Shown here: piece by piece, positions 12,485 through 20,300 of the stretch | Layout: each line of letters starts with the position of its first letter | How positions within the stretch are numbered: the stretch's first letter is position 1 | NCBI GenBank assembly: GCA_038049695.1 | Contig: CP142457.1 | Location: forward strand, 60,198,501 to 60,262,500 | From: Cinnamomum chago | Lineage: Eukaryota > Streptophyta > Magnoliopsida > Laurales > Lauraceae | Length of the DNA stretch: 64,000 nucleotides | Direction of reading: 5' to 3' | Made by a program: the position numbers and the translations under genes | Notes under the pieces: generated by a model | What the model was told of the DNA's origin: nothing | The model's database searches: none | The model's input: only the letters and a program-made list of their open reading frames with translations

Positions 12485-13136
12485 TCATCTAGTTTCATCT
12501 TGGCCTACAAGAGGAATTTAAAAAAAAAAAAAAATAGCATACCACTCTTCTATTAAACAAAAAGAAAGAAGATAAGCAGAATGGAAAACTAACCATAAGA
12601 AATCAGAAAGAAAAGGCTCATTTTATTATGTACCTTGGGAAAGCCAACAGTAAGTAGGGCGAGAAACGGCGAGCATTGAAGTCAGCAGGGCGGAAGATGT
12701 TGCAGAGTGCAGCGGCAGCAGAGACTCCACACAGAAGCTCATCTCAACAGGGGACCTGTATGAAGCAAATACAAGACAAACTATAAGAATCAATATAATA
12801 AAGAAGACAGATTGGTTACCTTACCTTACCTGCTCAGATGTCATTTCAGATCTGTTTGTTGTTGTTGTTGCTGCTGCTATTGCTGATGTTGTTTGTGTAA
12901 GAAAGAATATGTTCTTTCTTGTGATCGTGCATCAATCAATGCAATAGTTTTGTTTGTTATAAGACGAAGAGGAAGAGGAAGAGGTACCTGAGGAGGAAAC
13001 GAGCAGGAGAAGGCGGCTTCTGATTGGGGAGTCGGAAAGAAGAGCGGGCTGCTTTCGTTTCCGTGGTCACCTTTGCGGCTGCGTTGCGAAAGGAGCCGGA
13101 CCGAAATACAGACCTGGCGCAAGCAGCTATGGCCAT
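12485..13136 (-). CDS. NFD6: NUCLEAR FUSION DEFECTIVE 6-like mitochondrial protein
   Basis: Three exons on the - strand, 13136-12988, 12755-12634 and 12504-12485, give 96 aa. The N-terminus is Ala/Arg/Ser-rich without acidic residues ([20 protein letters not shown]), a classic mitochondrial presequence. The conserved family core follows across the first junction: [20 protein letters not shown], then [12 protein letters not shown]. The last exon adds only six residues (QDETR preceded by a split Gly codon). NFD6 of Arabidopsis is a mitochondrial protein of similar size, needed for polar nuclear fusion in the female gametophyte. Its biochemical role is unknown. The family has close homologues, so the exact orthologue is uncertain. 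A nested hAT complex begins only ~100 bp upstream of the ATG. Confidence 0.88.
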
Positions 13137-13226: not shown

Positions 13227-13302
13227 CAAAAACCCTACTCCTGAAGATGATTGTAATAAACAGTTAAATCGAGTTTTTATTATCACTTTCACTAGGTGGG
13301 CC
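13227..13302 (-). promoter_or_regulatory. Promoter elements of the NFD6-like gene: telo-box and TGGGCC motif
   Basis: AAACCCTA at about 13229-13236 (telo-box) and TGGGCC at 13297-13302 (site II-type element) lie 95-165 bases upstream of the ATG. This pairing is frequent in plant promoters of mitochondrial and ribosomal protein genes. The TGGGCC motif falls inside the 142-bp segment that is duplicated at 17191-17332, so the duplication carries a copy of the proximal promoter. Confidence 0.45.
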
Positions 13303-13381
13303 AGCCAGTAATTTCCAGTCATTTGGACCCACTCCTATTAAAAATGAAACCTCAGAATGAGCTCGGATCCCTGTTTTGTTC
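13240..13381. repeat. 142-bp direct duplication, left copy (NFD6-like promoter region)
   Basis: Begins CCTGAAGATGATTG and ends CCCTGTTTTGTTC. It matches 17191-17332 over its whole length with about seven substitutions. The left copy abuts a 5'-truncated hAT fragment at its right edge, and the right copy abuts the intact terminus of the same fragment. The geometry is that of an insertion with a very long target duplication. Confidence 0.85.
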
Positions 13382-13403
13382 TCTATTCTTCCCTGTCTAC
13401 GGG

Positions 13404-16400
13404 TAGAGATGTAAAACGGGCCGTGTCGGCCAGCTTCGGCCCGCCAGGGAAAAATCCTGGCACGGCACTACCCGCCATGGGGCGGGCTGGAGCGGGTCGG
13501 GCCAGGCGGGCCTGCTCTGTTTTTTTTTTTTTTTTTCAGTATTAAAAAAAAATAGAACACAAATACACAATTACGGAGAATGACAAAGATATTTAAGTGG
13601 TTCGGTCAAACTCGACCAAATCCACTAAGAAGAGAGAACCATTTGAATCTTAACTTTTTGAAGGTTTCTAAATAGAATTACTTTCAAAACCTTACAATCT
13701 TTTTAGAAAAAAAAAAGAATGTTAAACTTATAAATTTAAAAATTACAATGAAGGAAAAAGTAAAAAATCAAACGTATAGTCCACTAAAGTATTCTACTAG
13801 ATCATAATCTTCCATTGATGTCAACTGTTGCTTCCTCTTATCTGCCAAATACCAGTCTCGTAGGCAAACACAATACTCCACCGTTTCTTCAGTCAGATTA
13901 GTTCTTTTGTCATCCACCACACGTCCACCTGCACTAAAAGCCTGTTCTGATGCTACATAAGACATTGGAATAGTCAATAGATCACGAGCCATGGCGGCTA
14001 ACACCGGATAAACGCTTTCTTGTTGCTTCCACCAAGCTAAAAGGTCAAAACTAGATACATCATGCATCCGTATTACACCGACGTCAAGATACGATGATAA
14101 CTCCGTCACAGTGTTACTTGAACTTGAGCCGGATGCCATGCCCGTAGACAGGGAAGAATACCACACATCCCACTCACCAACACCTGTTTGTTGGACTTCT
14201 GAATTGCCCATACTAAGCCCATTTGTATCCATTTGCTCACAGTATAATTGAAAAAGTGCTTGTAAATTTATCTTAATAGTTGAAAAAGTATTTGAATTTA
14301 TATAATTTATATTTTTATTTATTTCATCAATAAAAAACTGTACACCACTTAATTTTAACCTATGATCAAATACGACAGCTAAAGAAAATGTCATTGGAGC
14401 CTCTTTCCAATATTTATTAAATTTTTCTTCCATGTTTTTAACAGGGGTACTCAGTAAAACATGATCTCAAAATCTACTGAATTGTACAGTAATTTTAAAA
14501 AGCTTCATTAAAGCTTCATTAGATGTGGGATAATATATCCCGGAAAAAAATAATGTTGAAGTATAAAAAGCTTCTAATAAATCCCTTATATGTGCACATA
14601 ACTCCCAATGTTCATCACTAATCATAAAATGTTGTACATGAAAAGCACAAAATTCATTCAGAACAGTTCTCCGGTCAAGTGTATTGTTTAACAAATCATA
14701 CATAGAATTCCATCTTTGTTGTACCTCCTTGGATATTTTAATAGCTGATACGCCTTGCCTCGTACATATTTGGTGCATACAATTGTCTTTTTTGTGCGGA
14801 TGCGAAAATAAATCTAGCAATGTCTTTAATAGAATCTGTGTAAGTTACAATATGCTTTAAACCAATATTTGCAATGAGATTTAAGATGTGACATACACAT
14901 CTATTTTGAAAGATAAAGCTATCTATCAAGGTTGCAAGTGGCATCTGCATTCTCATTAATTCAATAGCCACTGTATTATTACTGGCATTATCTAAAGTTA
15001 CAGATAAAACTTTTTCTTTAATATTATATTCATCTAGTTTTTCCAAAATAAATGTACTTATTCTAGTGCCACTGTGTGGCCATTCAAGAGTGCTAAAACT
15101 AATTATGCGTTTATTAATAATCCATTTTGAATCTATGTTATGTGCAGTAATACAAAGATAATTGTCACCCCCTTGAGATGTCCACATATCTGTGGTTATG
15201 GCTAATCTGCCAGGAATTTCTGCAAGGTAATTTTTTATATTTATTTTCTCTTCCTGCCAGAGTCTAATAGCATCATTTCTGGCTGTATTTCTTGAAATGC
15301 TGTGAAATTGTGGTTGACAATTTACCTGGACCCATTTTTCAAAAAACTCATTTTCAACAAAACAAAATGGTAATTCGGATAACACAATCATTTTAACAAG
15401 ATTTTGTCTACAACTTTGTGCATTAAAAGAAAAAATACCTAAATTGCTACTACTACTACCACCACCAGTACTAGAAATTTGGATCTGTGATCCAGGCCTT
15501 CCTATCCCTACATCAGCCGGCTTATGTAAGGCAAGACATTTTTACTTATGTCTTGTCAAATGACCGATACCCATTTTTGACGAGGCATCATAAATCTTAC
15601 TACAAAATTTGTATTTTGCCTTTTCAACTGTTTTTCCATTTTCAATAACCTCAAACCTTGTAAATATTTTTCAAATTGCTGAAGTTCTATTTCTCTTGGT
15701 TAATTTACGGGAACTCTGAGGAAGTGGTGGTAAATCACCTACTTCATCTTGTAATTCAATAAAATTTCCTTGTTCCCCCCCTAAATTAACTGAAGAAGAT
15801 TATGTGGGAAGTATTTTAGCCATATTTCAAAAAATAAATTTTATAAATAATAACAGTAATAGGCTCTAATAGCCTTCTTTTGTGATAATTAATATAAGAA
15901 ATGGGACAAAATTAGAGTTAATATAATATAAACTTATATATATGTAATCTCAAATTTAAATAATATAAATACCTCTAAATCTTTGAAGGCCCGTTTATTT
16001 TGTCTCTTGATAACTTGATCTTTGGCCCTCCAAAAGCTTCTTAGAGAGAGTGAAAGAGTTGAATGCTTTGAGATAGAACTAGAGAATGTATAAAGAGAAT
16101 GAAAGAGTTGTGTAAATTGGTGAGGAATGAGAATGAGATGGTTAGGGTATTTATAGACTTTGTAAAATGACAAATGACACAAAATACCCCTTATATGATC
16201 GTTTTATAGCTGTTGGGGGGGGGGGGGGGGGGTAAAATGGATTTAAAAAAAAAAAAAGGGGATATGGACGTTGGGCGGGCCTGGCTGGCGGGCCTAGTGG
16301 GCTGGAGGTACCAGCCCACGTGCCAAGCGGGCCTGGCGAGCCCGGACCAAATGGGCCCAGCCTCCTCGGCCCCGCACGGCCCGTGTCTCGGGCCATGTCG

Positions 16401-16451
16401 GGCTATGGCTCGTTGACTGTTCGGCCCGGCCCTACCCATTTAACATCTCTA
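13404..16451 (-). mobile_element. hAT (Ac-like) transposon, 3,048 bp, with degenerate transposase gene
   Basis: The left tip is TAGAGATGTAAAACGGGCC and the right tip ends CATTTAACATCTCTA, so the TIR begins TAGAGATGT. A perfect 8-bp duplication TCTACGGG flanks it (13396-13403 and 16452-16459). The subterminal regions are GC-rich with many GGGCC/GGCCC words. The transposase gene runs on the - strand. The target is an older copy of the same family lying in the opposite orientation, so this is a self-insertion. An 18-G run sits at 16215-16232. Confidence 0.92.
13768..15823 (-). pseudogene. hAT transposase pseudogene (RICESLEEPER/DAYSLEEPER type)
   Basis: The gene reads leftward from an ATG at 15823 over about 685 codon equivalents. 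Recognisable parts in order are a BED zinc finger (FCSKIYDASSK then GHLTRHK, about 15640-15540), the RNase H-like catalytic region (AITTDMWTSQGG and SVTLDNASNN, about 15200-14990), and the C-terminal hAT dimerisation domain (DLLAWWKQQESVYPVLAAMA, SEQAFSAGGRVVDDKRTNL, about 14070-13880). It is broken by early stops (codon 8, just before the BED finger and within it), a frameshift near 14740-14820 and a stop or shift near 14440-14467. Its own product should not be functional, so recent movement would need a transposase supplied in trans. Confidence 0.9.
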
Positions 16452-17190
16452 TCTACGGGCATGGCATCCGGCTCAAGTTCAAGTAACATTGTGATGGAGT
16501 TATCATCGTATCTTGACGTCGGTGTAATACGGATGCAGGATGCATCTAGTTTTGACCTTTTAGCTTGGTGGAAGCAACAAGAAAGCGTTTATCCGTTGTT
16601 AGCCGCCATTGCTCGTGATCTATTGACTATTCTAATGTCTTCTGTAGCATCAGAACATGCTTTTACTGCAGGTGGACGTGTGGTGGATGACAAAAGAACC
16701 AATCTGATTGAAGAAACGGTGGAGTGTTGTGTTTGCCTACAAGACTGGTATTTGGCAGATAAGAGGAAGCAACAATTGACATCAATGGAAGATTATGATC
16801 CAGTAGAATACTTTAGTGGACTACACGTCTGATTTTTTACTTTTTCCTTCATTGTAATTTTTAAATTTATAAGTTTAACGTTCTTTTTTTTTTCTAAAAG
16901 GATTGTAAGGTTTTGAAGGTAATTCTATTTAGAAACCTTCAAGAAGTTAAGATCCAAATGATTCTCTCTTCTCAGTGGAGTAAGTCGAGTTTGACTGAAC
17001 CACTTAAATATCTTTGTCATTATCCGTAATTGTGTATTTGTGTTCTATTTTTTTTAATACTGAAAAAAAAAACAACAGAGCAGGCCCGCCAGCCCGCACC
17101 ATGGCGGGCCGTGCTAGTGGGCAGTGCTGTGCCAGGGTTTTTCCTTGGCGGGCCGAAGCTGGAGCCGGCACGACCCGTTTGACATCTCTA
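16452..17190 (+). mobile_element. 5'-truncated older copy of the same hAT family (3' half)
   Basis: Opposite in orientation to the element at 13404-16451. It carries the C-terminal transposase coding end, the 3' non-coding region and an intact right tip ending GACATCTCTA at 17190. About 20 further bases of this copy lie to the left of the younger insertion (13384-13403, TATTCTTCCCTG...). Everything upstream of that is missing and is replaced by the 142-bp duplicated flank. Confidence 0.88.
16460..16832 (+). pseudogene. hAT transposase C-terminal fragment
   Basis: About 124 codons open to TGA at 16830-16832. It encodes GMASGSSSSN, then the hAT dimerisation domain (DLLAWWKQQESVYPLLAAIA; SEHAFTAGGRVVDDKRTNL; a conserved Tyr-Leu-Ala-Asp near the end). 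It parallels the C-terminus of the nearby pseudogene with scattered substitutions, for example His for Gln in SE(Q/H)AF. It has no start codon or catalytic core of its own. The younger hAT insertion cut it at codons for Ser-Thr-Gly. Confidence 0.88.
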
Positions 17191-17332
17191 CCTGAAGATG
17201 ATTGTAATAAACAATTAAATCAAGTTTTTATTATCACTTTCACTAGGTGGGCCAGCCAGTAATTTCCACTCATTTGGATCCACTCCTATAAAAAATGAAA
17301 CCTTAGAATGAGCCCGGATCCCTGTTTTGTTC
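17191..17332. repeat. 142-bp direct duplication, right copy
   Basis: Same length as 13240-13381 with about seven substitutions. It starts at the exact base after the hAT terminus (CATCTCTA then CCTGAAG). It includes the TGGGCC motif of the NFD6-like proximal promoter. Confidence 0.85.
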
Positions 17333-20300
17333 GGTAAAAACTAGTCAACTGTGTAAAATAACTTCCTTGGTTTTCTCATTCTAAAAAAGCAATTGAGATG
17401 GCACAATAGCATCGAGATATTGTTTCATATAATTTCAGGGGCGGATCGAGGAACTCTTCCTTGGAGGGCTACTCTGTAGAAATAAAATTTTGGAAGGGTC
17501 ACTCACATATAAGAGAGTATATATAATTTTTAAAACATATAATGGCTTTTTTTAAAAACTTTGGGGAATCTATTTCTGCCGCTGTCCAATCCTAAATTGG
17601 TAACGGTGTAAAATCTCTAATATAGCCATTCAATTGCTTGTTTGGAATGAGAAAAAACACGGAAGAAAAGTTATTAATTTAGGATTGGATGAAACAATAG
17701 AAACAAGGGATCCGACCTCCACTAGATGAGATGAAATTCATCTTGAACGGCCGGATTATCTCTATATGGATAGTAGACCCTGCAACTAATGATTGATCTT
17801 CGATTGTTTATAGGGAAGTCCACTCATTGCTTAGGTATCAGGTAAGTCTAATCTTAGGAGCAATGAAAACTGTGTTTTTTATCATGCTTTTACATATCTA
17901 GATCAATCTGATTGGTCAAAGAGGATCCGATCAAGCAAAATGGCTAAATCAGACAGTGGACGGTCAAGTTTAGCCTAATATAAATGGCAAAGTTAATGGT
18001 AAAGCTGTTGAAATCAGTTAGGATGCAAGTCAGATTATAAACAACTCATTTGGGTCAGACCATGAGGCCAATCCAGTCCTCAAAAGCGCCAGCAGTGCAA
18101 AGAACATGGACAAGAAGCAGTTTGACTTCAGCCCACTTGAGCAATGCCTGCCTGCCTTGTCCAGAAAATCCAGCAAGTAGTCAATTATTTGGGCTGGTTG
18201 CAGTACCAGTCTATTGGTCCCAAAACATCAAGCAGAGTCGAAGTGAAGGCCGCCCAAGCCTGCCCATCATTTGGGTTGGGCTCGCTGGCCCAGCCGGAGG
18301 CCCGAATGGGTCCCATTGCTCCCAAACAACCTGCAGGAATTGTGCAGGATTTCAGACAGCCGGCACCATCAACGCTGGTGTTTCCCTTTTATGTTAGGGT
18401 TTGAAATAATTTAGGAATTTACTTGTCTTGATGTAGATGGAGGAGATTTGTTTAGGGTAGTGACAGTGTTTGAGGTGCATATACGCTATGTTAAGGCCTG
18501 TTCTGGGCTTTGGCTGTCCAATCTTGTCTCAAATATTGGGTGGGTCTGTTGGGAGTTGTCCAGTCTCAATCTTAAATTGAACGGGCGTTTGTCAAATCTT
18601 GTCCCGTGTGGGCAAGGGTTTATCATGATCTTGAATATAAGCTAAATATTCTCTAATTATTCATATACTGCCACCAGACATAAGATGTGAATCGGACTTT
18701 AAACCCTCATCTTTTTTCCGAGCTTGGGGTCGGCAATGCAATGTGACAATCAACATGGCGGAGTTTTCTTTTCCGGTGATAGAGTTGAAAAATAAAAAAA
18801 TCAACATAAATTAATCGAAATCAACAATGTATCCTATGTGGGTCAAGTAATGAATAAAAGGACTCGACAAAAATCAACATAAATCATTTTTCTTTTGATA
18901 TGTTAAAAAAGTCATTTAGTGCATTCTCATCATTGTCTGGATCATCGTCACTAGCTAGGTCATGACTAAACCAGTCTTGGGCAAAAACTAATGCTTTTAT
19001 TGTATCCGACTTCAAAGAAGTTTTATGTGGGTCAACTGGTCAAATACTCTCCCTCAAGTGCTAAATGTCTACTCTAAAGCAACTGTGGACACGGGAAATA
19101 ACTAAAATATCGCGAGCCATATGAGATAAAATAGGATACTAAGTTGAATTCTATTTTCACCATTGTAATATATCTATTGTGTCACCTTCTTCTACAGACT
19201 TATCATCAAAATGACGATCTAATTCCGTTTTTTTTTCCAAGTGCCTTACTGATAATTTCTTTTCGATACCCTAAAAAAAGAGAATGGGCCTTTCCATGAG
19301 AATAGTTTTTCATGAATCAGTTCCCCATTCCCCTTCATATTGATGCAAAGAGTTGCATAATATATATATTTTTTATTTTTTATTATGCCCAGGGTATCCC
19401 ATGCCACCCAGCCTTATGGCCCAGGTCTATGACCTGATTTGGCATGCACAGACCAATCCTTGGGGTAACTCACGTGGCCCCACACATGAGTCACCAACTT
19501 GACGCACCGGGTATCCAAGAGGTTTCGAAATGAGGACCTCAAAGCCTTTGGCCGCACACCCTGTTCCTACACCTTCGCCTGGGAGGGCTGCACAATATTA
19601 TTATTACAATGAGAAAGCCCACGATATCATTAAGTTATGGCCTTTTGTATATATGTCAGTAATCAATACTAAGAGTAGAGTTGAGGGTGACTTTCCTTTC
19701 TTTGCAAGAAGTTTTATATAACAAAATGACAATTGACAATCCAACCTTAATATGTGTTGTTCGCTTTATGAGAATTGAATTTAAGACCATATGAACCACA
19801 TGTCTCTCTTTGTTCTGAAGTTCATTGAATTCTTTTTTCCATTCAAAGGCATCTTAATTTTTTCATATAGAAAATGAGAATCCATGTCATGGCCGGGCCG
19901 GGGACGTGCATGTTTTACCTATTTTCAGTCTCATTTTGGCCGGCCTTTAAAACCCTTATTCAAGTCTAGCCCACCAAGCTCAATTTTTTTTAACAGCACT
20001 GTATTTTCAGGCTTGGGCTGGGCCGGATACTCATTTAAATGGGCTCAATTGACAGGCCTAGCCATGTAGAGGGGTCGACTTAATTTCTTTTCTGATTATA
20101 TTCAATGAATGTTGCACATCTGCAGTTCTCTTCGTTTTGGTTTGAGGATTCTCCCAAGTAAGGGCCAAGAAGTTGTATGCCCATCCAAAACGCTCATGAC
20201 TTTTGGCCGACCTACGATTGGCTCGTTTATGCAAGAGTAGTGTAAGGGCTTACCCCAGAACAGCCTCGGCCTGGGCCTATCGTAAGGAACGGACCTAGAC

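Follow-up and report, generated by a model that had tools for sequence, protein, structure and literature searches.

A 64,000-bp stretch of the Cinnamomum chago genome (contig CP142457.1, positions 60,198,501 to 60,262,500, hereafter the window; part of contig C7 of the 1.06-Gb assembly analysed here) harbors a truncated hAT transposon lying between two copies of a 142-bp sequence, D1 and D2, and carrying a second, full-length and inverted member of its own family. D1 and D2 both open with the same 8 bp, CCTGAAGA, at the place where an ordinary 8-bp target-site duplication (TSD) of the outer element would stand, a feature missed in an earlier description made from the letters of the window (the sequence-only reading). 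As CCTGAAGA is kept as the first 8 bp of both copies, a 142-bp target duplication is not required, and we consider, with moderate confidence, that the locus would be an ordinary insertion in which one-sided repair put another 134 bases of its right flank in the place of the 5' part. The anatomy is present in the assembled DNA, with the 8-bp repeats and one abnormal joint, and comprises the following features (window coordinates):

13240 to 13381, no strand: D1, the gene-proximal 142-bp copy, from sequence alignment and a genome DNA search
13240 to 13247, no strand: CCTGAAGA, putative left 8-bp TSD of the outer hAT, from the sequence and from the 8-bp duplications that the family makes
13382 to 13383, no strand: TC at the joint, absent at this place from both parents
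13384 to 13403, plus strand: left remnant of the outer hAT, by alignment (12 bp, 13384-13395, plus one copy of TCTACGGG)
16460 to 17190, plus strand: main remnant of the outer hAT, its 3' quarter including the intact 3' terminus, with 91-92% identity to the nested copy and encoding a hAT dimerisation domain
17191 to 17332, no strand: D2, the distal 142-bp copy, in presumed original continuity with the DNA on its right
17191 to 17198, no strand: CCTGAAGA, putative right 8-bp TSD of the outer hAT, from the sequence

A genome-wide DNA search with the 142 bp (E <= 0.001), performed with a program that skips very common words, finds these two places only (E 6.5e-67 and 2.8e-57) and no third copy, so that a dispersed repeat or a miniature inverted-repeat transposable element was rejected as the nature of D. 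The two copies had been described as the same 142 bp with about 5% divergence, and their alignment bears this out (135 of 142 positions identical, seven substitutions, no gaps), with a divergence of 4.9% and a 95% interval of 2.0-9.9%. D2 had likewise been said to start directly at the intact hAT terminus, and 17191 does follow the terminal base of the outer element, which ends ...GACATCTCTA at 17190. The end of D1, placed by the same description exactly at the truncation point, is in fact separated from it by the two bases TC (13382-13383). Further to the right of D2, an inverted repeat of about 42 bp (86%; 17362-17402 and 17625-17665) is possibly a small inverted-repeat element.

The outer element is more reduced than the loss of a 5' half previously attributed to it: with the nested copy as reference, positions 1-2291 of 3048 are gone, that is three quarters (75%) of its length, and the remnant starts with TATTC... 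at position 2292, while still matching PF05699 (E 1.8e-23). A family-wide truncation at this point was considered and rejected, given that 25 distinct upstream sequences (from 62 loci, the nested copy included) run on across it. The two bases just before position 2292 are GG in 23 of these sequences, GT in one and GA in another, and TC in none; the continuation of D2 after its 142 bp is also GG, and TC thus matches neither the element nor the D2 continuation. Because GG stands in both parents at the joint, TC is either filler or a changed pair, and two nucleotides belonging to neither parent are what end joining often leaves. In the register of the joint both parents read GGTA, a four-base agreement obtained in 0.6% of random-register trials; the product reads TCTA, and a joint by microhomology would therefore be a post hoc possibility only. 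The nested copy aside, 13381-13384 is the single abnormal joint at the locus, and no transposon terminus is present at this junction between D1 and the fragment.

That the final structure goes beyond simple transposition, as the sequence-only reading had argued, is also our view. Of the two mechanisms it offered, aborted gap repair was rightly named, while the widely staggered break with its 142-bp duplication can be dispensed with, an 8-bp CCTGAAGA and one illegitimate joint being sufficient. In the course of events proposed here, where the anatomy is our ground for inferring a break, a template and a polymerase step, an Ac-like hAT would have inserted about 104 bp upstream of a start codon, creating the 8-bp duplication CCTGAAGA. 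A break would have followed at or near the 5' terminus of the element, either through transposase cleavage at that end or through breakage, and the gene-side end, terminating in CCTGAAGA, would have been extended by 134 bp of the flank beyond CCTGAAGA, with an insertion-free allele as template, or the right-hand flank itself with the 8-bp repeat as primer. Synthesis would then have stopped and the new end would have been end-joined, leaving TC, to the element broken at 2292, giving a composite insertion, made of 134 bp of its own flank and of the element's 3' quarter, that the CCTGAAGA copies still enclose. Either earlier or later than this repair, the second family element would have inserted in inverted orientation at 12 bp from the joint.

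Ordinary insertion followed by one illegitimate joint explains the geometry, since the family regularly makes 8-bp duplications (found in 10 of 15 reassembled copies at no more than one mismatch). An excision footprint was considered at the start of D1 and none is visible there; a footprint-free start at the 8-bp repeat is as expected if D1 was copied from uninterrupted flank. In maize, filler DNA is described as copied from the vicinity of breaks, with sizes of, for example, 1-131 bp at wx (PMC2686159), and the joints of aborted re-replication show at most 9 bp of microhomology, and sometimes none, in the cases described (PMC4270019); the repair favoured here agrees with both accounts. In Arabidopsis, crossing over is reported not to be influenced by Ds excision (PMC1978519), an observation somewhat unfavourable to a template on the homologue and in favour of one in cis.

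The nested element has the following parts:

13396 to 13403, no strand: TCTACGGG, left TSD of the nested hAT, from the sequence
13404 to 16451, minus strand: nested full-length hAT, 3048 bp, with both terminal inverted repeats (TIRs) and with PF05699 and PF14372
16452 to 16459, no strand: TCTACGGG, right TSD of the nested hAT, from the sequence

A full-length element of the same family, inverted and with a clean 8-bp duplication, had been announced inside the fragment, and 13404-16451 is just that, with TCTACGGG on both sides. It is opposite in orientation to the outer element, its TIRs read TAGAGATGT.../...ACATCTCTA, and it matches the hAT dimerisation domain PF05699 (E 1.9e-26) and the hAT RNase-H-like domain PF14372 (E 2.8e-7), its transposase coding sequence being split over at least three separate open reading frames. 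The two elements form inverted arms (13517-14154 and 16446-17083) that are 93% complementary, the arrangement of an element inserted in inverted orientation into its own family that characterizes double Ds and sesqui-Ds. The latter is reportedly known in maize from Martinez-Ferez and Dooner in 1997. In the maize double Ds as described (PMC3260210), a full element lies inverted inside a truncated copy of the same family, as it does here; the flank duplication is an addition of the present locus, and the likeness to both lies in the sequence arrangement. Chromosome breakage in the presence of transposase is a further property of such structures.

Did the fragment exist before the nested copy inserted, as the sequence-only reading had it? 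That order was asserted rather than shown. Only 12 bp separate the nested copy from the joint, a closeness with a chance of about 1.7% under uniform placement in the 751-bp remnant (a post hoc figure). At most, it hints at an earlier nested inverted insertion and at a break related to it. Sequence ages do not separate the events either: over 611 sites in 40 rows, outer and nested copies included, the outer copy differs from the majority base at 19 sites and the nested copy at 17, with six and five private changes, respectively, and their terminal tree branches are 2.9% and 2.2%, and neither these branch values nor the D1/D2 divergence put the events in order.

To what extent is this structure repeated in the family? 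A first look gave 464-1324 candidates depending on the query, the best 40 being scored per search, and 15 copies with enough flank were reassembled. Eight of these have perfect 8-bp duplications and two have duplications with one mismatch; the remaining five have no match at up to one mismatch, with degraded duplications by eye in L012 and L020, a 5' TIR not found at up to two mismatches in L005 and L038, and both TIRs with non-matching flanks in L061. The family belongs to the hAT superfamily by its transposase domains (in both elements of the window), by its 8-bp duplication (in the nested and family copies, and in the outer one only if CCTGAAGA is read as its TSD) and by the short TIRs TAGAGATGT.../...ACATCTCTA (in the nested and family copies, the outer copy having its 3' terminus only). 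Repetition of the flank was tested in the 15 reassembled copies, in 8 loci by repeat search, in 7 loci and in 3 reassembled copies. The repeat search had a minimum of 25 bp, for which reason no direct repeat is reported for L042, which overlaps L079; L011, L021 and L026, covered by the repeat search only, are not counted as one-sided, neither terminus being seen intact. Six of the copies examined have one intact terminus and no far end (the studied locus, the inner copy of L079, L005, L035, L045 and L062), and the flank is repeated beyond 8 bp in two of them, the studied locus, which was the starting point of the survey, and L079. The latter (G000:C11:8816268-8823400; L079:1001-6404) is an inverted nested hAT pair with a near-palindromic centre, in which the outer copy has a clean TGGTAGAC duplication and the inner copy, inverted, with an intact 5' terminus and a broken 3' end, has 19 bp of outer-element sequence, in the place of 8 bp, on both sides with one difference; this second locus counts in favour of the proposed repair.

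Several of these observations weigh against one-sided repair of an ordinary insertion. No flank duplication is seen in L005, L035, L045 and L062, although in these copies the far end may merely lie outside the 1.2-1.4 kb examined, an insertion being possible instead of a truncation. L079 is the weaker evidence, because its two copies form a palindrome and a fold-back deletion at the centre of that palindrome could have yielded the same product. An occupied ancestor with D2 as the original copy is presumed from one genome only, and the 4.9% divergence between D1 and D2 is high for recent copying from an ordinary allele. Finally, a staggered break would yield an identical end product, and so would reversed-ends transposition followed by deletion.

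The first of these, a widely staggered break in which overhangs of about 142 nt were filled on both sides and an excised hAT piece with an exact terminus was captured between them, is in our judgement unlikely. It would directly produce the order X-D-fragment-D-Y, an excised linear element could supply the exact transposon end, and polymerase action at staggered ends is described as the source of small tandem duplications, with direct repeats at the repaired break as here, apparently with no involvement of a transposon terminus in the cases presented (PMC8355091). It requires, however, the capture of a fragment with an exact terminus, turns the 8-bp repeat flush with that terminus into a mere by-product of D, and leaves unused the normal insertion chemistry of 10 of the 15 family copies.

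Rather improbable is a transposition with reversed or hybrid ends, contributed by a sister chromatid or a neighbouring copy, that would give D-hAT-D, a later deletion removing the tail of a longer D1 and the 5' part of the hAT. Such duplications exist in maize, with three cases among 7611 hAT insertions in the survey described, whose repeats measure 147/148 bp (93% identical), 1262/1257 bp (96%) and 116/118 bp (99%, with fractured elements) (PMC3744419). The resemblance lies in the short direct repeats of two of these three natural cases (116-148 bp), which start exactly at a hAT terminus, and in the fractured elements of one case, which consist of 288/289 bp of the 3' end; in the maize examples, however, an element precedes and initiates each repeat (PMC3744419), whereas here one outer element lies between the repeats, unique gene-side DNA with no visible footprint precedes D1, and D1 runs at its other end into a broken element at a joint devoid of a transposon terminus. 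Two events would moreover be needed. Another maize structure in favour of this route is bz1-m4-D6856, described as a truncated flank copy joined to a truncated Ds (PMC4270019). This and similar composites of aborted re-replication share with the studied locus the truncated flank copy, the truncated element and the 8-bp duplication outside; their edges are formed by transposon termini (PMC4270019), whereas the present locus has the 8-bp repeat and the right terminus and lacks a terminus at its left edge, and a large tandem duplication was not found here.

A more far-reaching version of one-sided repair, in which the nested inverted insertion comes first, is tentative and also improbable. The insertion would form a double-Ds-like palindrome, a break next to the inner copy would follow, and synthesis with the 8-bp TSD as primer would mend it; family-wide, inverted nested pairs would recurrently resolve by one-sided truncation and TSD-anchored copying of flank (142 bp here, 19 bp at L079), which at the studied locus would have rebuilt the gene-proximal upstream region. 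A tandem duplication of D arising first, followed by hAT insertion and a 5' deletion, is very unlikely: small tandem duplications are common as a matter of general knowledge, but two coincidences would be needed, an insertion that hit the D1/D2 border precisely and a deletion that stopped just where D1 ends. An assembly artefact joining an empty to an occupied haplotype, although such a mis-join would look identical, has very little probability and is unlikely as the origin of the structure, in view of the lack of any N run in the window, the non-homologous joint with two extra bases and a D divergence of 4.9%, judged high for two haplotypes.

One-sided repair of an ordinary insertion, the reading that we favour, has relatives among known repair products. 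Ds derivatives that arise from Ac by abortive gap repair are said to have been described by Rubin and Levy in 1997; the break, the partial copying and the end joining with filler are alike, and an end-joined break inside the element is indeed found at position 2292 with its TC. The classical products reportedly keep both termini and lose the middle, whereas here one terminus is lost and the element's own flank stands in its place. Another relative is the gap-filling capture described for Pack-TIRs, in which a break in or at a transposon is repaired by template switching to adjacent sequence; in that description the filler lies between transposon sequences, whereas at the present locus no element is left on the left of the captured flank (PMC8277862).

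The gene beside D1 is represented in the window by one delimited feature:

12988 to 13136, minus strand: coding part of the first exon of a small gene, with a putative splice donor at 12988/12987, boundaries by eye

Its start codon ATG is at 13136-13134 and a second exon lies near 12694, giving at least two exons within 12650-13136 on the minus strand. The first-exon peptide matches no Pfam family; the gene presumably resembles those of plant NFD6-like mitochondrial proteins. The near end of D1 and the first base of the ATG are 104 bp apart, and the DNA up to 13239 is unique and belongs to the gene side. Through D1, 142 bp of presumed proximal promoter would thus stand again beside the gene, and, if the proposed repair is true, a promoter interrupted by a transposon would have regained its proximal part with no excision. 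More generally, an ordinary 8-bp target duplication could then serve as anchor for a much longer apparent one, and long duplications around broken DNA transposons need not imply long staggered cuts. The corresponding signature, a long repeat that opens with the 8-bp TSD directly at the intact terminus of an element broken at its other end, can be searched genome-wide. Locally, the structure is a scar in one plant genome and a variant of a published kind of structure: related structures have been published from maize, and an exact precedent was not found in the open-access literature searched, most subscription journals lying outside it.

Some further observations concern other copies of the family and the assembly. 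The L081 copy (G000:C11:10946585-10950304) is interrupted by about 1.8 kb that begin with TG and end with CA, with a 5-bp repeat TTATC, and that look like a solo long terminal repeat. L020 (G000:C5:34285539-34289300) is a full-length copy with several short repeats (up to 38 bp at 84%) common to its left and right flanks, probably because it inserted into a tandem array. At G000:C2:70557611-70727409, five family copies on the same strand follow each other about 40 kb apart (one step being 49 kb) and show almost no differences over the 611 bp compared, which points to a duplication, either tandem or segmental. Lastly, 11 of the 12 contigs inspected, out of 14, have lengths divisible by 2,500 bases, which scaffolding presumably explains.

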